Of a stretch of 64,000 bases of DNA, positions 7,909 to 64,000 are shown piece by piece (within the stretch, counting starts at the first letter, position 1; the number at the start of each line of letters is the position of its first letter). Below the pieces are notes generated by a model. The model was given only the letters and a program-made list of their open reading frames with translations. It was not told the origin of the DNA and searched no databases. A program made the position numbers and the translations under genes. The stretch covers positions 1,178,001 through 1,242,000 of the forward strand of contig NZ_CANDOB010000001.1 of assembly GCF_947387515.1 (NCBI RefSeq). Direction: 5' to 3'. Origin of the DNA: Alkalihalobacillus sp. CinArs1. GTDB lineage: Bacteria > Bacillota > Bacilli > Bacillales > Guptibacillaceae.

Positions 7909-10900
7909 TTACTTCACTAGCTTTTGAAGCTCGTCTTTCGTCATTTCACTAACAGCACCATTTCCACCTAGTACCTTCACAGAAGTAATATCATTCGTGT
8001 AGAGGTACTTCGTAAGGAATGATTCAACCTCACCCGGAACATCATCTTTCTGTACCAGGATCATCGTTCCGTTGTTCATCGTTACAAGTGGAGCTGAAGC
8101 AAGAGCATCAGGGAACGTCTGTCCGCTTGCTACATAAAGAGTATCAGTAGAGTCTGCGAACATCGTTTGAATTGCTGCAAGCGTTCCGTAACGATTCTTA
8201 CCTTTCAGACGTTCAGTATTCGAAGCAATCTTTTCAACTTCTTTGAATACATCGTCAGAAATTGCACCTGTACCACCTAGAACATATACATTTTCACCAG
8301 CGAGAACTTCTTTCGCTTCCTTCGTTAACTTCTTACCATCCGTTAGTACGATAGGCATTCCATTTTCACCAGCAACACTTGCAGCACTTAGGGCGTCTGC
8401 ATATGTCATGCCAGTTGCAAGGAAGACACCATTACCAGCGAATTCAAGTTCACTCTGTAGGTGATCGACAATCTTAATGTTTGTGTCGAATCGACTCTTA
8501 CCAGAAAGTCTTTCAACATTCTTCGCACTCATTCCAAGTTCAGCAAGTTGTACAACTACGTCATCAGAAACTACGCCAGTTCCACCAACGATAATTGCAT
8601 TTTCTGCACCTAGACGAGAGATTTCAACTTTCACTTGATCGGAAAGCTTTCCTTTTGGTCCTGCAAGTAAGATTGGAGCACCGTAAGCAGATGCTAGAGG
8701 TCCTACAGACAGGGCATCAGGGAAGTCATAGCCAGTTGTGATCACAACTGTTTTGCTATCTTCTTCTCCAAAACCATTTGGATACATTTCTTTTGATGTA
8801 GCGATCGCTGTACCTTCACGGTCTTTACCTTTGATAACGTCTACTACTCCGCCATCTACAGAAACAGGAAGAATAGAGAGTACTTCACCAGTATCAGCAT
8901 CTGTTAAGAATACACCAGCAGTGTAATCACCTGAGGACTCAGGGGCTGTGATCTTTACATCTGTTTTAAATGATTTTCCTACTCCGAGGTCAAACGTTTT
9001 ATCTGTTGCTTGTAGTTCACCTTCACCTTCAACACCTGGGCTTGTTACTTTTTGTTCTGTAATTGCTAGATCAACTGCAGTGTCGCCACCTTCAGCAGTA
9101 GAGTAACCATAAACGGCTACAAGATATTGGCCATCTTCAAGATTATTCAGCTTCACAGCTTCATCAGAAGAGGCGGAGCCTGAGCTAGCAACCATCTTAG
9201 GACCATCTTCAGTAACTTTATAGAACTCTAAGTCAACATCGTCCAATGGGTTATTCGGATTAGAAGTTACCACTTCTAGAGAGATGTTGTTCTCAAGGTT
9301 AAGACTTTTAACGTAGTAATCTTGTAAAGGAACTTCAACGTTTTCCTTCGTTGTTTCTGCCTTACTGAAGTCTCCAGTTTCTACTTTCACTTTCTTAGAA
9401 GTAGACATGTAGTTTTCAAACATAACTTCTTTCGTTGCTTCAAATCCTGCAGGTGTTTGACCAAGATCAATCTGACCTGGGGATTTCACGACACCTTGAA
9501 CAAATGCTTCAAAGTTGAATTTGTTCATTTCTTTGCCTTCTTCAGGACCAAACGTACCGTAGATAGCTACTTCCCATACTCCTGCTTTAGGACTTTCAAA
9601 TACGTTTTCTTCTACTTTCAATCCACCATTACCGTACCCAGCGTAGCCCTGATAGCTACTTACTTGTGTACCATTTGGATCGAAGACCATCATTCTTACA
9701 CGGCCTTGATATTCGCCATTTTCTTGTAATGCTTCAAGAGCAAAGCGAATTTCATCCATTCCAGGCTTTACATCAAAGTAATAGTGCTTTGTTTGAGAAG
9801 CTTGCACTTCGTTCTCATCACTAAAGCGATACTTATTATCAGAAGTAAACTGTTCACCCATAATGATTGTTTGGTGAGATCTAGCTTCTACATAGCTTGT
9901 GGAAGAATCATCAATAACTAGCGTACCTTCATTTCTACCAACCTCAAGCTGAGATTTATCATACGTTACTGTAATTGCTTCACTCTTACCTGCTTCTAGC
10001 GTGATCGACTTTTTAGAAGGAGTAAACCAGCTCTCAGACGGAGTGATAGAAAGCGTTTTCTTCTCATCAGTTGGGTTCTCGATTAGAACTTCAACCTTTT
10101 CTGGAACTTCTTGATTTCTTACGTAAAGGCCTGCACCACCAGATACTTTCTCACCGTGGTAGACTTTCACGTTTACTTCTTTTAACTCATTAACAAAGTT
10201 ATTCTTCAAATATTCAAATGCAGCAGGGACGTCGATAAGACCAGCACCTTGTTGAGTACGAGTGTACCCTTCAAGTGGTTTAGCTGTTTGAATCAACGCT
10301 TCACGAGCTGTTTCATAATCAAATGGTACGCGATCCTTAAGAGAAGCTTGCTTTAATAGCGCCAGAGCACCAGCTACATAAGGAGCTGACATACTAGTAC
10401 CTTGAAGAACTGCATAATTACCCAATTGAGCAGGATAAGCTGCAAACGCTGCTCCTGGAGCTACGATATCAGGCTTTTGCATTCCATCTTCACGTGGCCC
10501 GTTAGAAGAGAAGTACCAAAGTCCGTCTCCTTCTTTCGGAGTTCCATCCTCGTTTTTACCATATGGATATGCACCATATTCTGTTGCCCACATTGTTTCG
10601 TCTATGTGTGCTCCTACTGATACAGATGCTGTGCTTGTTCCAGGAGAACCTACAGTATCTGCTCCAGGACCAGAGTTACCAGCAGACATCGAGAAGATTG
10701 TTCCGAATTCTTCAGATAGGATATTAGCTAGTTGATCATCTGAATCCGTTCCATCGTTCAAGTCTGGCAAGGAACCTAGACTCATATTTACAACATCAAC
10801 GCCAAAACCGCCTAAGTCTTCAGGAAGAGCTGCATCTACCATCGCTGACATAATGCTGTAGCTTGAAGCACCGCCCTCAGCTTTAAATACTTTTAAACCA

Positions 10901-12063
10901 ACAAGTTCCGCACCTGGAGCTACACCATCTTTAGAAACTGCCCCTAGAGCGTTTGTGCGTGCAGGGCCATTCGCTGCTGTAATACCAGAAACGTGAGTTC
11001 CGTGGCCGTTAACATCGAAGAAAATGTTAGCAAACTGACCTTCAGAATCGAGTGAGTTAACACGGAAGTTAGCTCCTACAAGGTCGTCATCTGGATTTAC
11101 ATCAAACGTACCAGCTTGATTATTTTTGTATGGAATTTCATCAGAGAAGTCTTTATCGTTATCTTTGTCGATATAAACCTCTTCATCAACCATCAATACG
11201 CCAAATGCGTCAGCATCGTTACCTTCTTCAGCATCGTTATTATCTTCAGTTACTTCTCCATCAGCGTTCATGTCACCTGCGTTGTAGTCAGGTGCAAGCA
11301 TGCCAAAATGGTACTCATCATCAGAAGCATCGATACCTGCTGTTACATATGTATCACCATCAGCAGTGAATGAAGCGCCTTCATCAAACGTTTGATCAAA
11401 TACGACGTCACCTTCTGCAAGCAGCATATCTCTTTCATAAGTCTGATCGCCTATTGTATAATCACGCACACCTACGATTTTTGACTTCCCAAAATACCCA
11501 TCTTTTAATGTTGCAGTAAATGCTTCGTGACCTGGGTCTGGACCAGAGTCAATGATTCCTACTCTTACTCCTGAACCATCGTATTTGTTGTGAAATTCAT
11601 CTACACCAGTTGCATCGTGAGTTTCCTCAGTTTGTGGACCATCAACTTCTCCACCTTGTTCATTAACTGGCTTAATATCAGGATCATCGAACGTCTTTTC
11701 CAATTCTACAGTACCGTTTTTACCTAGTGATGCAACGTCTGCAAGGTTATAAACGTCCATAACTTTTGAAGTTGGCATTTCTGTTAAGTAAATATAGTTC
11801 TTATGGTTGTCCTTTACTGTGACACCCAACTTCTTTAGTTGAGAGGTGATATCTTTCTTCCCTTTTGTAACAACGATTAGTTCTTGAGATTGCTGACCAC
11901 TAAGTGCGAGAGCAGAGATCTCCTGAGAAATCGGTGCCTTAAACTTCTTCGTCTCTTGTAATGCTGCATCAGCCACTTCCGGATTGTATCCGACGCTCGC
12001 AAAAGATGAGGCGATCAGAGATGCCCCAGCAACGACGGAAAGAACTTTGTTCTTGAATGTCAT
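7909..12063 (-). CDS. Vpr-like subtilase with three C-terminal CWB2 repeats
   Basis: An exported serine protease of 1384 residues. A signal peptide (about 1-34) is followed by an I9-type propeptide (about 60-125) and a subtilase domain with Asp172 in GIIDSGPDPGHEAF, His354 in NGHGTHVSGI, oxyanion Asn463 in SAGNSG and Ser557 in GTSMSAPYVAG. About 180 residues separate Asp and His, far more than in subtilisin. That insert is very acidic and holds two EF-hand-like calcium loops, near 264-274 and 299-309. Fibronectin-like and pre-peptidase-like regions follow, then three CWB2 repeats (about 1090-1384), each with (I/V)xGGTGxVS-type and FPDALS-type blocks. The CWB2 modules should hold the enzyme on the cell wall. 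It is monocistronic, with its own promoter and terminator. Confidence 0.93.
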   Translation of the reverse strand: MTFKNKVLSVVAGASLIASSFASVGYNPEVADAALQETKKFKAPISQEISALALSGQQSQELIVVTKGKKDITSQLKKLGVTVKDNHKNYIYLTEMPTSKVMDVYNLADVASLGKNGTVELEKTFDDPDIKPVNEQGGEVDGPQTEETHDATGVDEFHNKYDGSGVRVGIIDSGPDPGHEAFTATLKDGYFGKSKIVGVRDYTIGDQTYERDMLLAEGDVVFDQTFDEGASFTADGDTYVTAGIDASDDEYHFGMLAPDYNAGDMNADGEVTEDNNDAEEGNDADAFGVLMVDEEVYIDKDNDKDFSDEIPYKNNQAGTFDVNPDDDLVGANFRVNSLDSEGQFANIFFDVNGHGTHVSGITAANGPARTNALGAVSKDGVAPGAELVGLKVFKAEGGASSYSIMSAMVDAALPEDLGGFGVDVVNMSLGSLPDLNDGTDSDDQLANILSEEFGTIFSMSAGNSGPGADTVGSPGTSTASVSVGAHIDETMWATEYGAYPYGKNEDGTPKEGDGLWYFSSNGPREDGMQKPDIVAPGAAFAAYPAQLGNYAVLQGTSMSAPYVAGALALLKQASLKDRVPFDYETAREALIQTAKPLEGYTRTQQGAGLIDVPAAFEYLKNNFVNELKEVNVKVYHGEKVSGGAGLYVRNQEVPEKVEVLIENPTDEKKTLSITPSESWFTPSKKSITLEAGKSEAITVTYDKSQLEVGRNEGTLVIDDSSTSYVEARSHQTIIMGEQFTSDNKYRFSDENEVQASQTKHYYFDVKPGMDEIRFALEALQENGEYQGRVRMMVFDPNGTQVSSYQGYAGYGNGGLKVEENVFESPKAGVWEVAIYGTFGPEEGKEMNKFNFEAFVQGVVKSPGQIDLGQTPAGFEATKEVMFENYMSTSKKVKVETGDFSKAETTKENVEVPLQDYYVKSLNLENNISLEVVTSNPNNPLDDVDLEFYKVTEDGPKMVASSGSASSDEAVKLNNLEDGQYLVAVYGYSTAEGGDTAVDLAITEQKVTSPGVEGEGELQATDKTFDLGVGKSFKTDVKITAPESSGDYTAGVFLTDADTGEVLSILPVSVDGGVVDVIKGKDREGTAIATSKEMYPNGFGEEDSKTVVITTGYDFPDALSVGPLASAYGAPILLAGPKGKLSDQVKVEISRLGAENAIIVGGTGVVSDDVVVQLAELGMSAKNVERLSGKSRFDTNIKIVDHLQSELEFAGNGVFLATGMTYADALSAASVAGENGMPIVLTDGKKLTKEAKEVLAGENVYVLGGTGAISDDVFKEVEKIASNTERLKGKNRYGTLAAIQTMFADSTDTLYVASGQTFPDALASAPLVTMNNGTMILVQKDDVPGEVESFLTKYLYTNDITSVKVLGGNGAVSEMTKDELQKLVK

Positions 12064-12255: not shown

Positions 12256-12287
12256 AAAAAAAAAAGCCTCGAAATGAATCGAAGCTA
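12256..12287 (-). terminator. Terminator overlapping the subtilase stop codon
   Basis: A stem AGCTTCGA/TCGAGGCT (one G-T pair) includes the TAG stop of the 681-residue subtilase and is followed by ten T residues on the minus strand. Confidence 0.9.
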
Positions 12288-14330
12288 ATAGAGAAGACGA
12301 TGATCAATTGTCCAAGCAAGCTCAACAGAAATGGCGCCGTAGCCGCCTAAAATGTTATACGAATTTGCTCCTCTGTTTCTTAAATAAGTCAACTCTTGTG
12401 AGACCTCAGGAAGTAACTTATCTGGATGCGTGAGCATGATCGGGCTATCTTTCTTTGAAGAAAGAGCTCCTCCAACAAGAGCATCAGGGAAGTTCGTACC
12501 TGTTGCAATATAAATATGTTCTAGATAAGAAGAATTGAATCTCTTAATCACTTGGTAGTTTGTTTCATAACGATCTTTTCCACTTATTCTTGTAGTGGGA
12601 ACGCCTAGTGAGTCAGTAGTATGACTTGTAATGACCCCTTCTCCACCAATTGTATAAGATTCGGTTATACGATTGTTTTTCAGATAGGACACTACTTCTG
12701 CTGGAACTTTGTTTTTTTGAACAAATAAAACCGGGGTTTGCATCTTTCCTGCATAAGGAGCAATCGAAAGGGCGTCTGGAAAGTTCTCACCAGATGCAAT
12801 CATAGCTTCGTCGGTTTCAAATGGAATCGCCTCGTTTATTGCAACTGACGTTTCATAACGGTCTTTTCCAGATAATCGAATCGTTCTCATCCCACTTTCG
12901 ACTAATTGATCTTCAATTTCATTCGAAACGGCACCACTTCCACCAACGATTACAACATGTGTTACCCCGAGCCTATAAAGCTCTTCTTTATTCGCAGCAG
13001 AAAGTGACTTTTTCTGTTGTAAAAGGATAGGGGCATCGAGGTATGTTGACAATGGCGAAGCTGCCAGGCTATCCGGGAACGTCAAACCGCTCGCTAATAT
13101 GGCAAACTTCCCCTTTAGATTCGCGCCATCTAACACGACTTCTTTTTCACTTAGCTCCGACCAACCATTCTGTGAGACAGCAATAGCCGTTTCCACTGCA
13201 TTTTCACCATACAACCGATTGTTATTTTTGATACTATTTATGGCACCTACTACATTGAGCCTTCCAGTGCCAAGCTCATTTAAATCCTCGATTGGATCCG
13301 TTGTAGAAATTAGGATATTCCGAACCTGGTCTGCTGTTAAGAAGGGAGCATGTTGCATCACCATTCCAGCAGCTGAACTCACAAGAGCTGAAGACATGCT
13401 CGTCCCAGTCGAATAGTTATACCCATCTAACCACGTGCTATAAATATCCGTTCCCGGGGTATTGAGGTCAATATCTGCACTATAATTCGAGTAAGCGCCC
13501 TTCTCATCCGTTCCTGTATTCGTAGCACCCACTGCAATGGTAGATTCATATGCTGCGGGATATCTCACTTTGTTAAGGTTGTCGTTCCCTGCTGCCGCTA
13601 CAACAAGAACCCCATTTTGGGAAGCTTTATCGATTACGTCTTTCATAGACTGTAAGTTACTATAAGAACCGAGGCTTAGGTTAATAATATCTGCACCGTG
13701 GTTGATCGCGTACTCGATGCCTTCGACGACCGCAGACATCTGTCCAACGTTGCCATCCATCACTTTGATCGGCATAATTTTAACACCTTTTGAAATAGAT
13801 GCGATTCCAATTCCATTATTAGTAGTTGCACCTATAAGTCCAGAAACATGAGTGCCGTGACCTTCGTTATCCTGAGCAGTCTCTCCTTTTGAATGGAGGT
13901 TGATCCCCTTAACTAAATTCCCTTTTAAATCGGGATGATCGAGATCTACCCCTGTATCAAGAACAGCTACAACTACATCACCCTTCTGGACGTATGTATT
14001 CCATGCATCGGTTGTTGAAACTTCTGATAGATAACCTCTTTGCTTATTAAATTCTGGATCGTTTGAATTCATCAGATAGACTGGGGCATCTTCTTCAACA
14101 TAGTCAACATTTGGAGCGCTTTCTAGTTCTTTCATTACGCTGTTCTTTTGAGACTTTGTTGTCTCTATTACTTCAAAGCTGCTCTTACTAGATTGTGTTC
14201 TTACTACTTCATCAGATTCATTGTACTTCACGATTATTTTCACGGTTTCTTCAGCGTTTACTTGGTGGGTAGATATGATAAATAGGCTGAGGATAAATGC
14301 CGTAAACGTTATCTTATAGATTGCCTTCAA
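12285..14330 (-). CDS. Subtilase with three CWB2 repeats
   Basis: An exported S8 protease of 681 residues. It has a signal peptide (about 1-26), a short I9-type propeptide (about 28-85), and a compact subtilase domain with Asp125 in AVLDTGVDLDHPDL, His158 in NEGHGTHVSG, Asn249 in AAAGND and Ser311 in GTSMSS. The block after the serine reads SMSSALVSSAAG and lacks the proline usual in GTSMAAPHVAG. Three CWB2 repeats (about 370-681) with RLSGKDRYETS and FPDALS motifs make up the C-terminal half. It starts at a TTG behind AGGGGGAAAAGAA. It may be read from its own weak promoter or together with the 70-codon gene 77 bp upstream. Its closeness to the RNPP-type regulator suggests, but does not show, cell-density control. 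Confidence 0.92.
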   Translation of the reverse strand: MKAIYKITFTAFILSLFIISTHQVNAEETVKIIVKYNESDEVVRTQSSKSSFEVIETTKSQKNSVMKELESAPNVDYVEEDAPVYLMNSNDPEFNKQRGYLSEVSTTDAWNTYVQKGDVVVAVLDTGVDLDHPDLKGNLVKGINLHSKGETAQDNEGHGTHVSGLIGATTNNGIGIASISKGVKIMPIKVMDGNVGQMSAVVEGIEYAINHGADIINLSLGSYSNLQSMKDVIDKASQNGVLVVAAAGNDNLNKVRYPAAYESTIAVGATNTGTDEKGAYSNYSADIDLNTPGTDIYSTWLDGYNYSTGTSMSSALVSSAAGMVMQHAPFLTADQVRNILISTTDPIEDLNELGTGRLNVVGAINSIKNNNRLYGENAVETAIAVSQNGWSELSEKEVVLDGANLKGKFAILASGLTFPDSLAASPLSTYLDAPILLQQKKSLSAANKEELYRLGVTHVVIVGGSGAVSNEIEDQLVESGMRTIRLSGKDRYETSVAINEAIPFETDEAMIASGENFPDALSIAPYAGKMQTPVLFVQKNKVPAEVVSYLKNNRITESYTIGGEGVITSHTTDSLGVPTTRISGKDRYETNYQVIKRFNSSYLEHIYIATGTNFPDALVGGALSSKKDSPIMLTHPDKLLPEVSQELTYLRNRGANSYNILGGYGAISVELAWTIDHRLLY

Positions 14331-14407: not shown

Positions 14408-14620
14408 TTAAATGTCACATATTGGTGATTCTTGAGAGTGAGGAGCGTTGGAACAATCATAAATGGGTCTGTGGGATGAAATTTCGAGAAGAAGTGCATC
14501 ATATGAGGATTGGAGCTTGGAGTGTTTGGCTTCCAAAAGGCTTTGTTCTTTTCGTAATGACCCGATAATTTGGATCAAACTAGCAACTAAAGTTTCCATG
14601 TTATTTATCCTTTCTTCCAT
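14408..14620 (-). CDS. Small coiled-coil protein, function unknown
   Basis: A 70-codon gene that I do not recognise. The strong AAAGGAGG site eight bases before its ATG argues that it is translated. The product has a heptad-rich segment (about residues 1-50, with MEERINNMETLVASLIQIIG and LRKEQSLLEAKHSKLQ) likely to form a coiled coil, then a short polar tail with two cysteines. There is no signal peptide or membrane segment. It is divergent from the HTH-TPR regulator, with about 200 bp between them, and is upstream of the CWB2 subtilase on the same strand. It could be a target of that regulator; no family assignment is offered. Confidence 0.6.
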   Translation of the reverse strand: MEERINNMETLVASLIQIIGSLRKEQSLLEAKHSKLQSSYDALLLEISSHRPIYDCSNAPHSQESPICDI

Positions 14621-14688: not shown

Positions 14689-14748
14689 TTGGGAAACATA
14701 GTTACAAAATGGGACATTTATCACCGTTTTTCTCACCATATTTCCCAA
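14689..14748. promoter_or_regulatory. Spaced dyad in the divergent regulator promoter region
   Basis: TTGGGAAACAT (14689-14699) and ATATTTCCCAA (14738-14748) are inverted repeats matching at 10 of 11 positions, spaced by 38 bp, with a related ATGGGACATTT between them. They lie between the divergent coiled-coil gene and the regulator gene, so they are candidate operator half-sites for autoregulation. This is an inference from position and symmetry. Confidence 0.4.
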
Positions 14749-14823: not shown

Positions 14824-16080
14824 ATGATTGGGGCAAAAATCCGTTACTTCAGACAAATGAAAGGGATCACGCAAGAACAGCTTGCTTCAGGTATTTGTTC
14901 GATCCCCTATCTAAGCAAAATTGAACATGGACTAGCACAGCCGAGTGAGGAATTAGTCGAGCATTTATGTAAAGAATTGGGTGTATCTCTTGAACAGGTT
15001 GATGATGAAGATAAAATCAATCGATTACACAACGACTTGGATACCTGGTATAAAGAAATGCGCTTACGTAACTTTGAAGAAGTAACGTTGCTCAAAAAGC
15101 GGATCGAAGAAGAGATTGAAGGAGTAGAAGATCCAGATATGCTAACAAAATACCTCCTTCTCACCTTCAGATACCACATCCTTTTTAGAGAAGCAGATAA
15201 AGCGAACGATATTTTGGAAAAACTATACCATGTTCAAGAAAGATTGTCTGAAGATCTTGAGTACTTTTACTACTATTTCCTTGGACTATATAACTACCAA
15301 AATCGTAAATACAAAGAAGCGAATGAACAATACACTAAAGCGTACAAGCTTCTTACTTCCATGAAAACGAATAATGCTGAGTTAGCTGAATTCTATTATC
15401 AGCAAGCACTCGTTCACAATCGAATCAGTCAAATCACACTGTCGAATAACCTAGCAACGAAATGCCTAGACCTCTTCAACAAGGAGTATAACTTCAAGCG
15501 AGCGGCTGATACTGAGATTTTACTCGGTGTAAACAATCGCGTTATACTAAATTATGGAGAAGCTGAGCATCATTTCCAGAATGCTTTAAAATATGCTGAA
15601 TCATTCAATGATAAAGTACTTAAAAGTATTATTTATCATGATCTCGGCTATGTTTTTTCTTATCAAAATGATTCTGAAAAAGCTTTACGTTTTTATCAAT
15701 CTGGACTTCAAAATACTGAGGAGCATGATGAAGATTACTCTAAAACGATTTTCTTAATTGCTTCAGAGTATTTTAAGATAAATGATTTAGACTTAGCTCG
15801 TCACTGGATTGATAAAGGATTGAAGCTAGTAACGAAAAAAGAATACCTTGAGTATATCTATCATTTTAAGCTTCTAAGGTTAAAACTTGATGGTGATGGA
15901 AACAATCGAGAAGAATTACTTAAAGACGCCGTTAGTTACTTTGAAGCAAAAAACTATTGGATTCATGTATCTCAATATGGAGAAATGCTGGCAGATCACT
16001 ATTTTAATAGTGGTCAATATAAAAGCGCTAGCTTTTACTTTAGATTAGCCAACGATGCTAGAAAAAAAATTATGAATTAG
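14824..16080 (+). CDS. RNPP-type (NprR-like) HTH-TPR transcriptional regulator
   Basis: A 418-residue regulator with an N-terminal XRE helix-turn-helix (about residues 5-60: IRYFRQMKGITQEQLASGI and SKIEHGLAQPS) followed by a long all-helical tetratricopeptide region to the C-terminus (for example YYYFLGLYNYQNRKYKEANE, NYGEAEHHFQNALKYAESF and YQNDSEKALRFYQSGLQ). Length and layout match NprR (about 420 residues) more than the shorter PlcR. Such proteins bind an imported signalling peptide in the TPR domain and switch DNA binding. The ATG at 14824 has GGAGAAAGGAAG upstream, and the longer open frame before it does not look coding. Eighteen bases after the stop begins a small exported-peptide gene, and a terminator closes the pair. 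Confidence 0.9.
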   Translation: MIGAKIRYFRQMKGITQEQLASGICSIPYLSKIEHGLAQPSEELVEHLCKELGVSLEQVDDEDKINRLHNDLDTWYKEMRLRNFEEVTLLKKRIEEEIEGVEDPDMLTKYLLLTFRYHILFREADKANDILEKLYHVQERLSEDLEYFYYYFLGLYNYQNRKYKEANEQYTKAYKLLTSMKTNNAELAEFYYQQALVHNRISQITLSNNLATKCLDLFNKEYNFKRAADTEILLGVNNRVILNYGEAEHHFQNALKYAESFNDKVLKSIIYHDLGYVFSYQNDSEKALRFYQSGLQNTEEHDEDYSKTIFLIASEYFKINDLDLARHWIDKGLKLVTKKEYLEYIYHFKLLRLKLDGDGNNREELLKDAVSYFEAKNYWIHVSQYGEMLADHYFNSGQYKSASFYFRLANDARKKIMN

Positions 16081-16098
16081 AAAGGAAGAGAAAAAATC

Positions 16099-16227
16099 AT
16101 GAAAAAGTTTATCGTCAAGATGTTATTAATAGCTAGTGTTGGTAGTATCGCTTTAATGAGTGATCATGATAGATTGCCTGAATCTCAAAACCAAACACCA
16201 GAAGTAAAAACTGAAGTTATCGCATAA
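16099..16227 (+). CDS. Phr/NprX-like pro-peptide, candidate quorum-sensing signal
   Basis: A 42-codon gene immediately downstream of the HTH-TPR regulator, with an AAAGGAAG ribosome site. The product has a lysine-containing N-terminus and hydrophobic core (MKKFIVKMLLIASVGSIALM) typical of a Sec-exported precursor, then a polar C-terminal tail. The tail contains SQNQT (residues 28-32), which shares NQT with the Bacillus PhrA pentapeptide ARNQT, and ends VKTEVIA. Regulator-then-peptide order, short gap, precursor length and a shared terminator are what is known for NprR-NprX and Rap-Phr pairs. Which residues form the mature peptide is not decided by sequence; the internal SQNQT and the C-terminal region are both candidates. 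Confidence 0.8.
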   Translation: MKKFIVKMLLIASVGSIALMSDHDRLPESQNQTPEVKTEVIA

Positions 16228-16231
16228 TCCC

Positions 16232-16266
16232 ATAACCTGACGCAAACTGCGTCAGGTTATTTATTT
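16232..16266 (+). terminator. Terminator of the regulator-peptide operon
   Basis: A perfect 12-bp stem (ATAACCTGACGC against GCGTCAGGTTAT) with a 5-nt loop, followed by TTATTT, starts five bases after the peptide gene stop codon. Confidence 0.9.
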
Positions 16267-22768: not shown

Positions 22769-23037
22769 TCCGTCCATGTTTTTCACCCCTTTATAACATG
22801 TGAACGATTAATACGACCTGTATTTTATTACTTTCTCCGCACCCTTAATAGGAATAACGAAGCGTGTTTTTACTCTTCCTAAACTTGGGAAACGTATTAT
22901 GATTCTTGGGGTTAATAGATTATGAAAAAAAACAATTTTCCCAATATACAGGTCTATTGGATTACGTTATACTATTATTGAGGTCAAATTTCGACAAATT
23001 TTATTTTTTTCAGGTCTTCACAGTAACCGTCATACAA
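22769..23037 (+). other. Leader region upstream of c-di-GMP riboswitch
   Basis: This 270-bp stretch holds no gene that I can support. It probably contains the promoter of the riboswitch transcript. A TATACT box at about 22974 is the best -10 candidate but lacks a convincing -35. Confidence 0.35.
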
Positions 23038-23130
23038 TCGTACGAGAAAGGCAAAACCATTGAAAAATGGTGACGCAAAGCTAAAGGGACTTCACGGTAA
23101 TGACGTTCCGAAAGTCAGCCAGCTGCCGAA
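23038..23130 (+). ncRNA. Cyclic-di-GMP-I (GEMM-I) riboswitch
   Basis: The segment matches the GEMM-I layout: GAAAGGCAAAACC, a short hairpin closed by ACCAT/ATGGT with an A-rich GAAA-type loop, the invariant TGACGCAAAGCTAAAGGG core, a second hairpin arm, and the typical 3' closing segment CCAGCTGCCGAA that pairs back to GGCA. It lies about 45 nt upstream of a 45-codon membrane-protein gene. No rho-independent terminator lies between aptamer and gene, so control is more likely at translation (a TTCTCC element at about 23135 could pair with the GGGGGAG ribosome site). This is pattern recognition; a covariance-model scan would settle it. Confidence 0.88.
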
Positions 23131-23173: not shown

Positions 23174-23311
23174 ATGAAAGGAACCTGGTCGACTCCAGAA
23201 GAAATTCAATATAGGAAAGAGCGTAAGGAAAAGCTCATCTATATCCTCATACCGATTTCGGCAATTTTAATTGGAGCAATGATTGCTTTACTGACACAGT
23301 TAACGTATTAA
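23174..23311 (+). CDS. c-di-GMP-riboswitch-controlled single-span membrane peptide (45 aa)
   Basis: A 45-codon gene with an AAAGGGGGAG site six bases before its ATG. The product has a charged N-terminal cytoplasmic part (MKGTWSTPEEIQYRKERKEK) and one transmembrane helix (about residues 23-41, IYILIPISAILIGAMIALL), with a very short exterior tail. I recognise no family. Its position directly after a c-di-GMP-I aptamer implies that its level follows the second messenger, so a role in motility, adhesion or matrix control is plausible but not shown. A terminator follows immediately, so it is the only gene of the unit. Confidence 0.8.
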   Translation: MKGTWSTPEEIQYRKERKEKLIYILIPISAILIGAMIALLTQLTY

Positions 23312-56888: not shown

Positions 56889-57054
56889 AAAAAACTCTCT
56901 CTGATGAACAGAGAGAGTTGGGTGTTTTGCACTATGTAACTCTCTCTCATCTTTCAAACGATCGCTCGTTTGCTGGAATTAGCACCTTTCTCACGAACTG
57001 AGATGGTTGCCGGGCGTCAATGGGCCAGTCCCTCCGCCACTCTTGATAAGAGTT
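56889..57054 (-). ncRNA. SAM-I (S-box) riboswitch
   Basis: On the minus strand the leader contains CTCTTATCAAGAGTGGCGGA at its 5' end, the GGGACTGGCCC and GACGCCCGGCAACC core, the GGTGCTAATTCC block and a closing stem, the standard S-box layout. A terminator (AACTCTCTCT/AGAGAGAGTT, then TTTTTTC, 56886-56920) follows, and the ATGAGAGAGAG segment at about 56941-56951 can serve as anti-terminator partner. High SAM should stop transcription of metQ-metN-metP and the dehydrogenase gene. Confidence 0.95.
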
Positions 57055-59613: not shown

Positions 59614-61212
59614 TTATTTCTTTTCAGCATAGCGTAGGTCAGGGTACCTGTTGACCGGATAGACGATTCCGTCATAGTCTTGTGAAGTTAAGTAGTTTTG
59701 AGAATAATGATAGACAGGCATAAACGGCATATCTTTCATCAAAACATCCTCTGCTTTATGCAAGAGTTCCATTCGCTTTTCCTCATCCTGCACCATCTTA
59801 GACTCCGCGATGAGCGAATCGTATTCTTCGTTCACCCAGTTTGTACGGTTGTTAGGGCTATCGCCTAGGTAGTATTCTAGAATAGGTGTCGGATCAACAT
59901 AGACTCCGATCCACCCCATTCGTGCCATCTGGAAGTTACCTTGCTTCGTAGTATCAAGGTACGTCTTCCATTCCTGGTTGTTAAGTGTTACTTCAATACC
60001 GAGGTTCTGCTTCAGCATTTCCTGAACACCTTCTGCGATTTTCTTATGGTTATCAGAAGTGTTGTACATCAGTTCGACTGCCGGAAGTTCGCTCCAGCCC
60101 TCTTCTTGCTTTGCTTCTTCGATCAATTTCTTCGCTTTATCATAATCTTCTTCGAAATAGTCCCCACCTTGTTCTCTGAAATCACCGTTTGGCGTATCAA
60201 CACCTTCAGGCACAAAACCGTATGCTGGTGTTTCACCCGCTTGTGAGATATCTTCCGTAATGGATTTGCGGTCGATCGCCATCGCGAAGGCTTTTCTTAC
60301 TTTTTCATTTGTAAAAGGCTCCTTGTCGACATTGAACATATACATGTATGTGCCGAAATATGGCGTGATCTTGAAGTCTTCGCTTTCTTTTTCAGAAGAA
60401 ATCACGTCGATCGGCAGCGTATGGATCATGTCCAGTTCACCCGATTTATACATTTGATAATACGTTGTTGCATCGTTAACCATTTTCCACGTAATCTTCT
60501 CCATATTGATGCTTTCTTTATCCCAATAGGAATCGCTCTTCTCAATCGAAAGCTCGTTGTCATGCTTCCAGCTCGTCATGTGATATGCACCGTTACTGAC
60601 GATCGAGTCTGCCTCAGCGGACCAATTTTCGTTTCCTTCAACAACCGATTGGTTCACAGGATAAAACGTCCAGAAAGAAAGCAGTCTCTCGATAAATCCA
60701 GTAGGAGCGTTGAGTTCTACTTCTAACGTCTTGTCATCTACTGCCGTAATACCTACATCCTCAACAGAACCTTCTCCTTTGTTATAAGCTTCAGCGCCTT
60801 TGATGTAGTACATGTAAAATGCGAACGAGCTACCTGTTTCAGGGTTCAACACACGCTTCCATGCAAATTCAAAATCACCTGCAGTGATCGGATCTCCATT
60901 CGACCATTCAGCATCTCTTAGTGTAAACGTGTACGTGCGATCATCATCAGACACGTCTGTTTTTTCAGCGAGTGCAGGCTCGATCTCACCGCTCTTATTT
61001 TTACGATACAAGCCTTCGAATAAATGATCGAGTACCCACCCTGATGTCGTATCTGTTGCAAGAGCAGGATCCATGGAAGGCGGCTCGCTCATCGCATTCA
61101 CTGTTATTTCTTGCTTGCCTTCACCATCTCCAGAGGCGTCTTCCCCACCGCAAGCTGCAAGAAATGGAACGACGGTTAACACCATGATTAGACTATAGAT
61201 CAGTTTTTTCAT
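59614..61212 (-). CDS. oppA: Oligopeptide-binding lipoprotein
   Basis: A 532-residue substrate-binding protein of the OppA/DppE type (SBP family 5). The signal peptide ends in LAACGG with lipidated Cys21. The mature part has EPPSMDPALATDTTSGWVLD, YTFTLRDAEWSNGDPITAGD and KVRKAFAMAIDRKSI, all family blocks. It captures peptides for OppBCDF and, in bacilli, also imports Phr-type signals. The ATG at 61212 follows GAAGGAGGAG; the start six codons earlier overlaps this site. Its start overlaps the oppF stop by 20 bp. Confidence 0.94.
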   Translation of the reverse strand: MKKLIYSLIMVLTVVPFLAACGGEDASGDGEGKQEITVNAMSEPPSMDPALATDTTSGWVLDHLFEGLYRKNKSGEIEPALAEKTDVSDDDRTYTFTLRDAEWSNGDPITAGDFEFAWKRVLNPETGSSFAFYMYYIKGAEAYNKGEGSVEDVGITAVDDKTLEVELNAPTGFIERLLSFWTFYPVNQSVVEGNENWSAEADSIVSNGAYHMTSWKHDNELSIEKSDSYWDKESINMEKITWKMVNDATTYYQMYKSGELDMIHTLPIDVISSEKESEDFKITPYFGTYMYMFNVDKEPFTNEKVRKAFAMAIDRKSITEDISQAGETPAYGFVPEGVDTPNGDFREQGGDYFEEDYDKAKKLIEEAKQEEGWSELPAVELMYNTSDNHKKIAEGVQEMLKQNLGIEVTLNNQEWKTYLDTTKQGNFQMARMGWIGVYVDPTPILEYYLGDSPNNRTNWVNEEYDSLIAESKMVQDEEKRMELLHKAEDVLMKDMPFMPVYHYSQNYLTSQDYDGIVYPVNRYPDLRYAEKK

Positions 61213-62185
61213 TCGTTTCTCCTCCTTCATTCGTGTAAAGATGACATGCTACCCAATGGTTTTCTTTCGCCTCTCTCCACTCTGGCACGATCTCACGACA
61301 TACATCCATCGCATGCGGGCACCTCGTTCTAAAACGGCAGCCAGACGGAGGTGAGATTGGACTTGGTAAATCACCTTCAAGCATGATCCGTTCTCGTTCA
61401 CTCGCTTCTTTTGGATTCGGAACAGGTATGGCAGAAAGTAGGGCTTGCGTATAAGGATGAAGCGGCTCGTCGAATAATGAATCACTATCTGTAAGCTCCA
61501 TCAAGTTGCCAAGATACATCACTCCGATCCGATCACTGATATGCTTCACCATCCCTAGATCGTGAGCGATGAATAAATAAGTCAGCCCTTCTTCTTCTTT
61601 TAAATCTTCCATCAAGTTTACAATTTGCGCCTGGATCGACACATCGAGTGCAGAAATCGGCTCATCTGCAACGATGAAGTCAGGCTCTACCGCTAATGCT
61701 CTCGCGATCCCGATACGCTGCCTTTGTCCCCCACTAAATTCATGAGGATAGCGCTTTGCATGCTCAGCGCTCAATCCAACTTTTTCTAAAAGTTGAAAAA
61801 CACGTTCTTTTCGTTTCTTTCCTTTCAAGAGATCATGAGCATCGATCCCTTCTGCAATAATGTCCATCACCCGCATCCGTGGATTAAGAGAAGCTTCCGG
61901 ATCCTGAAAGATCATTTGCATCGTACGGTTAAGATCCCGGGCTTCTTTTCCTTTAACATGATTCGTATCGCGTCCGTTGTAGACGATACGACCATCAGTC
62001 GCCTGGTGAAGCCCCACGATCGTCCGACCGAGCGTCGATTTTCCACTGCCGCTTTCACCTACTAATCCGAACGTTTCGCCTTTTTTAATGAAAAAAGAAA
62101 TATCATCCACAGCTTTTAACGATTGATTTTTTCCTACGTTAAAATACTTTTTCACCTGCTGAACTTCGACTAGTGCATCACTCAT
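61193..62185 (-). CDS. oppF: Oligopeptide ABC transporter ATPase OppF
   Basis: A 330-residue ATPase of the importer with Walker A GESGSGKSTLGR, signature FSGGQRQRIGIARAL, Walker B FIVADEPISALD and the C-terminal oligopeptide/dipeptide region with RFRTRCPHAMDVC, containing the cysteines that in OppD/F proteins bind an iron-sulphur cluster. It overlaps oppD by 4 bp and oppA by 20 bp, so the operon is tightly coupled. Confidence 0.94.
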   Translation of the reverse strand: MSDALVEVQQVKKYFNVGKNQSLKAVDDISFFIKKGETFGLVGESGSGKSTLGRTIVGLHQATDGRIVYNGRDTNHVKGKEARDLNRTMQMIFQDPEASLNPRMRVMDIIAEGIDAHDLLKGKKRKERVFQLLEKVGLSAEHAKRYPHEFSGGQRQRIGIARALAVEPDFIVADEPISALDVSIQAQIVNLMEDLKEEEGLTYLFIAHDLGMVKHISDRIGVMYLGNLMELTDSDSLFDEPLHPYTQALLSAIPVPNPKEASERERIMLEGDLPSPISPPSGCRFRTRCPHAMDVCREIVPEWREAKENHWVACHLYTNEGGETNEKTDL

Positions 62186-63207
62186 ACATCGTTCCCTCCT
62201 GCAGCAACAAAGTCATTGGCGTTCGGTGCCCTCGTGTCGTTCAACCAGCACCGTGCCTGGTGTGTTTCTGAGGTTTTGATCGGGTCTGGCATCTGATCGA
62301 TACAGATTTCCATCGCATAGTCACACCTTGCAGCGAAAGGACACCCTGCTGGAGGAGCAAAAAGATCTGGCGGTGAACCTTCGATCGGAACGAGCCGCTC
62401 TTTTTCATGCTTGCCTTTCTCGTAGCGCGGTACCGACTTCAACAATCCCCATGTGTAAGGGTGTTTCGGAGTTTCGAAAATTTCTTCCACATCCCCACTC
62501 TCAACGATCACCCCCGCGTACATCACAGCAACACGCTGGGCAACTTCAGCAACCACCCCTAGATCATGGGTGATGATCATGATCGACGTACCGAGACGTA
62601 CTTGGATATCTTTTAATAAATCTAGAATCTGGGCTTGAATCGTTACATCCAGCGCTGTTGTCGGCTCATCAGCAATTAAGAGCTTTGGCTCACAGGAGAG
62701 CGCCATCGCGATCAACACCCGCTGTCTCATTCCTCCACTCAATTCGTGTGGGTACTGACGGTAGCGCTTCTCCGGATTTGGGATGCCTACTAAATCGAGA
62801 AGCTCGATCGTTCGGTCATGGATTTTAGAACGTGAATAATTGGTATGTTTTTTGATCGTTTCTGCAATCTGAGAACCGATTCTCATCGTAGGATTAAGTG
62901 ACGTCATCGGATCCTGTGAAATCAAACCGATCTCAGAGCCTTTCAACTTCTGCATCTGTTTTTTGGATAACCCTAATAGTTCTTTTCCATTAAACGTTAC
63001 GCTACCGCTTTTAATTCTGCTGACCTTCTTTGGAAGGAGACCCATGATCGACTGAGCCGTTACACTTTTTCCACAGCCGCTTTCTCCAACAATGGCGAGC
63101 ACTTCGCCCTGTTGGATATGAAAGTCAACGCCTCGTACAGCTTTGACTTCTCCACCATACGTTTTAAACGATACACGTAAATCATTTACATCGAGTAATC
63201 GACTCAT
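62182..63207 (-). CDS. oppD: Oligopeptide ABC transporter ATPase OppD
   Basis: A 341-residue ATPase with Walker A GESGCGKSVTAQ, signature LSGGMRQRVLIAMAL, Walker B LLIADEPTTALD, and the C-terminal cysteine-rich segment PPAGCPFAARCDYAMEIC. It forms the ATPase heterodimer with OppF. The ATG follows GGAGG and lies 13 bp after oppC. Confidence 0.95.
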   Translation of the reverse strand: MSRLLDVNDLRVSFKTYGGEVKAVRGVDFHIQQGEVLAIVGESGCGKSVTAQSIMGLLPKKVSRIKSGSVTFNGKELLGLSKKQMQKLKGSEIGLISQDPMTSLNPTMRIGSQIAETIKKHTNYSRSKIHDRTIELLDLVGIPNPEKRYRQYPHELSGGMRQRVLIAMALSCEPKLLIADEPTTALDVTIQAQILDLLKDIQVRLGTSIMIITHDLGVVAEVAQRVAVMYAGVIVESGDVEEIFETPKHPYTWGLLKSVPRYEKGKHEKERLVPIEGSPPDLFAPPAGCPFAARCDYAMEICIDQMPDPIKTSETHQARCWLNDTRAPNANDFVAAGGNDV

Positions 63208-63220
63208 CTATTTCGCCTCC

Positions 63221-64000
63221 TTATTCCTTTGACTGAGGATCGAGCGCGTCTTGTAGTCCATCACCGAACACATTGAACGCAAACATCGTTAATGAAATCA
63301 TGAAGCCGGGGAAGAACAGTCTCCACCATTGACCTGTAAGGATGACGCCAAGGGCGTCGTTCGCCATCGTTCCCCAACTCGCGATCGGAGCCTGTACACC
63401 AAGTCCGATAAAGCTAAGGAAAGACTCTGCGAAAATCGCTTGAGGAATTGTAAAAGTTAAATTTACAATGATAATTCCGATCATGTTTGGAAACAGGTGC
63501 CTCATGATAATCTTCCTATGAGGGGTTCCAAGTTTTTCAGCGGCAGCAACGTACTCCTGCTCTTTCAGCTGTAGAATCTGCCCCCTCACGATCCGTGCCA
63601 TTCCTACCCATCCAGTAATCGAAAGGGCGATGATGATCGTCCAAAGACCAGGTTTCATCACAACGAGTAATAAGATTACGACGAGAAGGTATGGAATGCC
63701 GTATAAAATCTCAACGATTCTCATCAAAAAGCCATCGACCTTGTCGCCAAATTTCCCTCTTCCAGCCATGTAGCCAGAAATTCCACCGACGATTAATCCA
63801 AGGATCAAATCGATTACAGCTGCCGCAAGTCCAATGGTTAAGGAGATTCTTGCTCCATACCATGTTCGTGCCCACATATCACGACCTAGCGAATCCGTCC
63901 CAAACCAGTGCTCTGGTCCTGGAGGCAAGTTTTTTCCTGATAAGTTCTGATCAGAATAGTTGAACGGGACAAGATGAGGACCGATAATCGCAAGGATCGT
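63221..64000 (-). CDS. oppC: Oligopeptide ABC transporter permease OppC, 5'-truncated by window edge
   Basis: The frame is open from the right edge to the stop at 63221 (260 codons). The visible part carries the OppC hallmark GPEHWFGTDSLGRDMWAR followed by membrane helices, and the EAA loop EYVAAAEKLGTPHRKIIMRH for ATPase contact. The open frame continues through the edge (…TILAIIGPHLVPFN), so the true start and first helix lie outside. An internal TTG at 63928 is not the start. OppB is presumably further right. Confidence 0.93.
   Translation of the reverse strand, partial: TILAIIGPHLVPFNYSDQNLSGKNLPPGPEHWFGTDSLGRDMWARTWYGARISLTIGLAAAVIDLILGLIVGGISGYMAGRGKFGDKVDGFLMRIVEILYGIPYLLVVILLLVVMKPGLWTIIIALSITGWVGMARIVRGQILQLKEQEYVAAAEKLGTPHRKIIMRHLFPNMIGIIIVNLTFTIPQAIFAESFLSFIGLGVQAPIASWGTMANDALGVILTGQWWRLFFPGFMISLTMFAFNVFGDGLQDALDPQSKE

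Follow-up and report, generated by a model that had tools for sequence, protein, structure and literature searches.

A probable NprR-type quorum-sensing system in Alkalihalobacillus and its predicted 60-bp split operator

In the genome of Alkalihalobacillus sp. CinArs1, a regulator gene with an HTH and TPR repeats is followed by a gene of only 42 codons. This arrangement raises the question of whether the two genes form a peptide signal and its receptor and, if so, which part of the peptide is the signal and which genes respond to it. We analyzed the locus within a stretch of 64,000 nucleotides (the window, to which all positions refer) and in related genomes.

The receptor gene and the adjacent peptide gene

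The regulator gene (14824–16080, + strand) encodes 418 amino acids comprising an XRE-type HTH, a RapH_N three-helix part, and a TPR superhelix. The short ORF (16099–16227, + strand, ATG start) begins 18 bp after the regulator stop codon, has the purine-rich ribosome site AAAGGAAGAGAAAA, and encodes MKKFIVKMLLIASVGSIALMSDHDRLPESQNQTPEVKTEVIA, the putative exported pro-pheromone. Both genes are followed by a hairpin of 13 pairs at 16232–16260 (+ strand), read as an intrinsic terminator; since a scan of 5 kb returned four terminator-like sites against 3.5 expected by chance, it is convincing only through its length and place.

A receptor ortholog was found in all 14 genus genomes and in the one sister-genus genome, and a peptide ORF lies 11 to 18 bp 3′ of the receptor in each of these 15 loci. 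Six named contigs carry a regulator ortholog with 57–94% identity, from Alkalihalobacillus algicola, Bacillus sp. NTK071, Pseudalkalibacillus hwajinpoensis (two), Alkalihalobacillus macyae, and Pseudalkalibacillus caeni. Four plasmid records hold more distant relatives (27.6–28.9% identical). Across a wider set of 75 receptor loci, a permissive filter detected a peptide ORF in 69, the remaining loci being L016, L019, L022, L027 (Rap-like and lacking an HTH), L030, and L162. A first-pass annotation had described a 418-residue HTH/TPR regulator, an 18-bp gap, a 42-codon gene, and one terminator, all of which were confirmed at 14824–16260; its proposal of an NprR-like receptor beside an exported pro-peptide agrees with the predicted fold (see below), and the scan of relatives that it had suggested recovered the small ORF beside every one of the 15 orthologs.

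Very probably, the two genes encode a peptide signal and the receptor for it. It belongs to the NprR-NprX kind known from the B. cereus group, which likewise combines a receptor of HTH, three-helix, and TPR parts with an adjacent exported propeptide, and such pairs are themselves already known. The TPR receptor fold and the adjacent exported peptide gene are also shared with Rap-Phr systems; however, Rap proteins have no HTH, whereas the receptor described here has one. The name Alkalihalobacillus does not appear in the main text of PMC9765709, nor do Alkalihalobacillus, Pseudalkalibacillus, or hwajinpoensis in PMC10075063, and the genus or species name is absent from the papers among the matches listed in our literature search.

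A predicted split operator and its promoters

Upstream of the receptor gene we found a predicted 60-bp operator composed of two 8-bp boxes, TTGGGAAA and TTTCCCAA, with a 44-bp spacer between them. Operator 1, TTGGGAAA-N44-TTTCCCAA, occupies 14689–14748 and ends 75 bp before the receptor start codon. A second predicted site with the same consensus and spacing, operator 2, is located at 22885–22944, and its equivalent place is kept in 14 of 14 genus genomes. Two sites thus occur in the 64-kb window, against none in 60 simulated sequences of window length (order-1 model).

The operator precedes the receptor in all 15 orthologous loci, exactly and at gap 44 in 13 of them, with one mismatch in L006, and at gap 45 in L015. 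When the 14 genus genomes were searched with gaps of 28 to 56, the pattern gave 78 sites, compared with 0 for a reversed control pattern. The gap was 44 in 72 sites, 43 in two, 29 in three, and 51 in one. The gap-29 pairs (G007, G009, and G011; one sequence, L090) and the gap-51 pair (G003) were dropped from the regulon, since their spacing is off and they look like chance matches. With the gap set to 44 and up to two mismatches allowed, the CinArs1 genome has six exact and two imperfect sites against two for the control; the two sites with two mismatches were rejected, their number being equal to the control count.

We aligned 71 sites on both strands. In this alignment the half-sites are invariant by construction (one mismatch was allowed at receptor sites), so that the informative parts are the spacer and the flanks. 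The spacer contains AT-rich blocks at positions 19–21, 29–32, and 40–42, about 10.5 bp apart, and the half-site centers are 52 bp apart, or about five helical turns. The NprR tetramer has been taken to suggest simultaneous binding of two DNA sites (PMC4970707, from its reference 22). From the spacing and the phased AT blocks, we infer that the DNA may be bent so that both half-sites meet one face of a tetramer.

The nearest parallel to this split operator is that of AimR, whose operator has 6-bp boxes and a 25-bp spacer, tolerates several spacer lengths, and is released when peptide prevents binding (PMC6458997). If the boxes are indeed read by the receptor, the likeness to AimR-AimP is that of an RRNPP receptor with two inverted boxes and an unusually long spacer. 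Unlike AimR, the boxes here are 8 bp, the 44-bp spacer is nearly fixed, and the promoters are activator-like. Our literature search, conducted mostly without subscription papers, found no operator for NprR, including when PMC3325205, PMC4970707, PMC5641580, and PMC7756075 were queried by term; the operator may therefore be partly known already. In a search by the operator letters, the papers among the matches listed were unrelated. The operator is described here from genomes of this order; a search of 18 large genomes with the NprR sequence gave no match at 1e-60, a result that carries no weight.

Promoters were analyzed at target sites, i.e., the 59 of 61 fetched non-receptor sites that have gap 43 or 44; three G001 sites and two gap-29 sites were outside the set. 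In 59 of 59 target sites, one or both sides of the operator have a TANNNT −10 hexamer at offset +23 (the 24th base) from its end; many of these sites are mutually orthologous and so not independent. It is present on both sides in 22 of the 59, and the background is 0.027 per offset. Within four bases before the −10 hexamer, TG was observed in 58 of 81 such sides. The corresponding hexamer falls at +22 or +23 in 34 of 45 sites from other families. The target promoters have no clear −35 element, and the operator ends just before the place where one would be. Judged from the predicted boxes, an operator that abuts the −35 position with a −10 box 24 nt out is the layout of an activator. At the receptor's own promoter, the likely −10 boxes are farther from the operator than at target sites, so receptor autoregulation may differ.

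The direction of control deserves attention here. The peptide of AimR, an RRNPP relative whose operator is likewise split, keeps this protein off its DNA site (PMC6458997), and by analogy the receptor might repress through the operator until the peptide relieves the repression. We consider this unlikely, because the activator layout recurs at every one of the target sites and because NprR activates when peptide-bound (PMC4970707).

We then considered how closely the operator follows the receptor. Among the 75 receptor loci, which come from several families, the operator was upstream in 49 and downstream in 3 (gap 42–47, up to two mismatches, within 450 bp). Family f11 has it upstream of 0 of 16 receptor loci and downstream of 3, yet operators precede f11 subtilases. 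In an order-wide scan at gaps of 38 to 50, 97 of 397 genomes had at least one site; control matches occurred in 18 of the 397, and single sites may accordingly be due to chance. Across 61 genomes, the operator was present in 21 of 25 with a receptor at E ≤ 1e-50, versus 4 of 36 without (p = 8.7e-9), and after removal of our own family the figures were 6 of 10 with a strong receptor versus 4 of 36 without (p = 0.0033).

Position and co-occurrence together suggest that the operator is the site of this receptor. The split operator could instead belong to another transcription factor that happens to control the receptor gene too, as in some genomes the receptor occurs with no operator, and in the 4 of 36 genomes an operator occurs with no close receptor. 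Such a factor seems improbable to us, given that the operator stands upstream of the receptor in all 15 genus and sister-genus loci and in most of the 75 loci, and that the co-occurrence persists outside our own family.

The pheromone core and the receptor fold

The product of the small ORF has no match in Pfam, NCBIfam, or PHROGs at E values up to 1, and its N-terminal signal suggests export. The conserved part of the peptide is the motif H[DE][RK][VLF]P[DEQ]S, which was found in all 15 loci as tandem copies, one in 5 loci, two in 8, and three in 2. In CinArs1, the codons of copy 1, DHDRLPES, occupy 16162–16185 (+ strand), the ends of the mature pheromone being only approximate. The codons of a diverged copy 2, QNQTPEV, follow at 16186–16206 (+ strand), as aligned by eye with the second repeat of relatives. 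Copy 2 is HDKVPDS or HDRVPDS in those relatives; it has drifted to QNQTPEV here and to KDHTPEV in the nearest genome, and in both of these genomes copy 1 is retained as DHDR[LV]P[ED]S. The pN/pS ratio of the core compared with the signal part was 0.15 versus 0.41 in L001–L010 and 0.27 versus 0.66 in all 15 loci, values that serve as a guide only, since they are crude counts pooled over related pairs with some identical peptides.

The first-pass annotation had instead drawn attention to SQNQT in the tail, for its NQT in common with PhrA (ARNQT), and had proposed testing for a conserved tail beside a drifting signal part. The pentapeptide is literally present, and the pheromone core does change less than the signal part, but the conserved segment is DHDRLPES and not SQNQT. 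SQNQT consists of the final residue of copy 1 and the beginning of the drifted copy 2, which covers most of it, so its likeness to ARNQT is best read as chance; in the by-eye alignment with relatives, the NQT segment is a decayed second pheromone copy.

We therefore rejected SQNQT as the pheromone: it is replaced by SKDHT even beside a 94% identical ortholog, where the DHDR[LV]P[ED]S core is kept. A Phr-peptide system whose mature signal is a C-terminal or SQNQT-type pentapeptide could also appeal to the Rap proteins as the closest solved sequence relatives of the receptor, but in addition to the loss of SQNQT, two or three copies of the core motif occur in 10 of 15 peptides, which makes such a system very unlikely.

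Several copies of a pheromone in one propeptide are not new. Atypically large NprR propeptides carried several identical or drifted pheromone copies in 17 of 17 cases (PMC9765709), processing of tandem Phr peptides has been reported (PMC11343458), and tandem pheromones in NprR propeptides are thus already published. Our peptides resemble these RRNPPA multi-pheromone propeptides in their identical or drifted copies and differ from them in that, within one clade, a single copy is retained and the second is decaying. Other families show the same layout with other cores (EHPDPT, DDSPKIN, DNSPGIKSL, DHPKIV, and FDHTPGPKA) and up to nine copies. Comparison by eye indicates that these cores and NprX, whose pheromone is SSKPDIVG (PMC4970707), share a Pro, often with an acidic residue next to it; DHDRLPES and SSKPDIVG likewise have Pro and then an acidic residue. 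Unlike NprR-NprX, the system described here has another pheromone sequence and, in relatives, tandem copies.

After export and cleavage, the pheromone would need a way back into the cell. Oligopeptide importer genes are present at 59614–63928 (− strand), encoding SBP_bac_5, two ABC ATPases with oligo_HPY, and one permease, in agreement with the earlier mention of an Opp importer in the window, and they are a plausible re-import route. A SAM riboswitch is also located in the window, at 56944–57052 on the − strand (96.9 bits).

To characterize the receptor, we compared its domains and predicted structure with known proteins. Its Pfam matches include HTH_3 (1.1e-10, residues 6–57), RapH_N (8.8e-9), TPR_2, and TPR_12; the AimR receptor model PF22871 is absent among its 18 Pfam matches up to E 1. 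Sequence relatives with a solved structure are RapJ, RapI, RapH, and NprR (4gpk, E 3.4e-19), with the Rap proteins and NprR being the closest. An AlphaFold2 model based on a 31-sequence alignment reached a mean pLDDT of 91.1 and a pTM of 0.76, and Foldseek with this model ranked Rap and NprR chains at the top. Superposition on apo NprR (5dbk_B) gave an rmsd of 2.3 and TM scores of 0.77 (query length) and 0.91 (target length). Pfam, model, and Foldseek thus agree on an XRE-type HTH, a Rap-like three-helix part, and a TPR superhelix, the combination found in NprR.

We next mapped the NprR residues whose roles are described in PMC4970707. The tetramer-interface residues Y223 and F225 correspond to Y222 and F224 and are kept in all 15 genus and sister-genus loci, a further likeness to NprR-NprX, whereas Y165 is replaced by R161. 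Of the peptide contacts, R126 corresponds to R122 (Arg in 9 of 15 loci) and W167 to Y163 (Tyr or Phe in 15 of 15). The peptide-anchoring Asn of RNPP receptors, described in PMC3601957, is Asp273 in the CinArs1 receptor. Asp occupies this position in L001–L010 (10 of 15 loci) and Asn in L011–L015; across 74 aligned receptors there are 64 Asn and 10 Asp, so Asp is an oddity of this clade, in which it also departs from NprR-NprX. The Asp loci L001–L010 have a pheromone with HD, and the Asn loci L011–L015 have one with HE. This pattern is possibly a co-change of receptor and peptide, one event at most.

Of the four NprR contacts to Spo0F, D107 and Y223 are kept (D103 and Y222), whereas Y118 and E188 are T114 and L187, at positions that both vary across the genus, so that the system differs from NprR-NprX in two of the four. 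This loss touches phosphatase activity; a role as regulator would not thereby vanish. That the receptor is mainly a Rap-like phosphatase of Spo0F with a minor role on DNA is hardly credible, for although RapH_N is present and two contacts are kept, the other two are variable, the protein carries an HTH, and the genes linked to the operator form a conserved set.

Operator-linked genes and the c-di-GMP-I leader

Every one of the 14 genus genomes has the operator in three placements: before an M4 thermolysin-type protease gene, between the genes of a protein of about 300 aa and an O-methyltransferase, and before a microprotein gene. S8 subtilases lie behind a total of 13 sites, spread over G000, G002, G003, G012, and G013; not counted here is an S8 match of 31% identity close to the receptor site of G001. 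Site-linked genes in some genomes encode a urocanase, an M50 peptidase, an AimR-like regulator, and a weak ABC-permease match below the Pfam cut-off, and one G001 site had no target among the 13 references used. The AimR-like regulator gene stands behind an operator in G005 (L079; PF22871, 1.6e-58). Of the five sites in the sister-genus genome, two stand before M4 proteases and the other three before the receptor, the 300-aa protein, and a subtilase.

Beyond the genus and its sister, sites precede subtilases in other families, confirmed by Pfam in f11, f43, and f46 and assigned in f20 by the 72% identity of L146 to the confirmed L125, and they also precede the receptor itself. Sites in f46 are further followed by M4 protease, PhoX phosphatase, and Rap-like genes. 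The Rap-like genes lie directly behind the operator (L225, L236), which suggests that the level of some quorum systems is set by another. The protein of about 300 aa (L063:1986–2885, L223:1688–2608, L226, L233), which is beside a site in 14 of 14 genus genomes, has no NCBIfam or PDB match and a weak Pfam match (APH-like_N, 4.5e-4 in L223). In the three f46 genomes examined, it is 25–33% identical and is encoded divergently from the receptor.

From these placements, the receptor seems to turn on genes of secreted proteases via the operator, and the M4 neutral protease gene among the operator-linked genes is another likeness to NprR-NprX. Two exported subtilases neighbor the receptor, one with CWB2 repeats (12285–14330, − strand; 4 of the 6 named relatives have it next to the receptor) and one with CWB2 and PPC domains (7909–12063, − strand), the latter with no operator in front. 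They were rejected as direct targets, as the only two operator sites of the window are not directly before them. A 70-aa coiled-coil-like ORF (14408–14620, − strand), matched in 3 of 6 named relatives, is divergent from operator 1 and possibly a member of a divergent transcript; the subtilase with CWB2 repeats lies behind it, and both subtilases could follow operator 1 through that transcript. The protease link drawn in the first-pass annotation is thus supported, because the receptor promoter and distant protease genes share the 60-bp operator, but not through an operator directly in front of the neighboring subtilases. Taken as a whole, that annotation was right about the type of system and the involvement of proteases but wrong about the relevant part of the peptide and about which proteases the evidence concerns.

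Operator 2 has a −10 hexamer at +23 and may lead into a second kind of control. A c-di-GMP-I riboswitch aptamer (Rfam RF01051, 74.6 bits, gathering 35) lies 96 bp after it, at 23040–23130 (+ strand), followed by the gene of a 45-aa membrane microprotein (23174–23311, + strand), the predicted output of operator and riboswitch. The order of operator, aptamer, and microprotein ORF is conserved in 14 of 14 genus genomes, with 96 to 110 bp between operator and aptamer; the aptamer is RF01051 in 13 and the GGC variant RF03167 in 1 (L058). The predicted folding energy of the riboswitch-leader RNA was not significant (z = −0.51).

The microprotein has no Pfam or NCBIfam match, and matches to it occur in 37 of 150 genomes at E ≤ 0.01, our own genus included. 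In 8 of 16 relatives outside the genus (L207–L222), a c-di-GMP-I aptamer immediately precedes the gene in the same orientation, and there may therefore be a family of c-di-GMP-controlled microproteins. Purine aptamers near L211, L212, and L218 were dropped as controllers because they are positioned downstream of the gene.

Taken together, we regard a complete NprR-type quorum-sensing system, from peptide to regulon, as the probable explanation of the locus. The peptide gene product would be exported through its N-terminal signal and cut outside the cell to a short pheromone centered on DHDRLPES, which would be re-imported by an oligopeptide permease. It would then bind the TPR pocket of the NprR-like receptor and favor a tetramer, which would bind the split operator across its two half-sites and phased AT tracts. 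Once bound, the tetramer would activate promoters pointing outward from the operator, in which the −10 box is 24 nt distant and a −35 is not clearly recognizable. The putative regulon comprises the receptor, secreted proteases (M4, and subtilases in some genomes), the 300-aa protein, and the microprotein that would be further gated by c-di-GMP.

A broader reading is about evenly balanced in our estimate. It holds that the two-half-site code TTGGGAAA-N44/45-TTTCCCAA is general to NprR-type tetramers in several families of the order, with half-sites five helical turns apart, a spacer bent around the receptor by AT tracts phased at 10–11 bp, and each half-site driving an outward promoter in place of a −35 element. 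In this genus the code would act in series with the c-di-GMP-I riboswitch, so that the 45-aa membrane microprotein would be produced only when crowding and c-di-GMP come together in the appropriate way.

Systems of this kind are already known; what is added here is the 60-bp split operator code and its link to c-di-GMP. Given an explicit site whose spacing is nearly fixed, together with its promoter geometry and a list of targets, the NprR tetramer model is now testable with half-turn spacing mutants, and the operator offers a cheap way of reading NprR-type regulons from genomes. The leader behind operator 2 points to a conserved microprotein gene as the place where population density and c-di-GMP meet.
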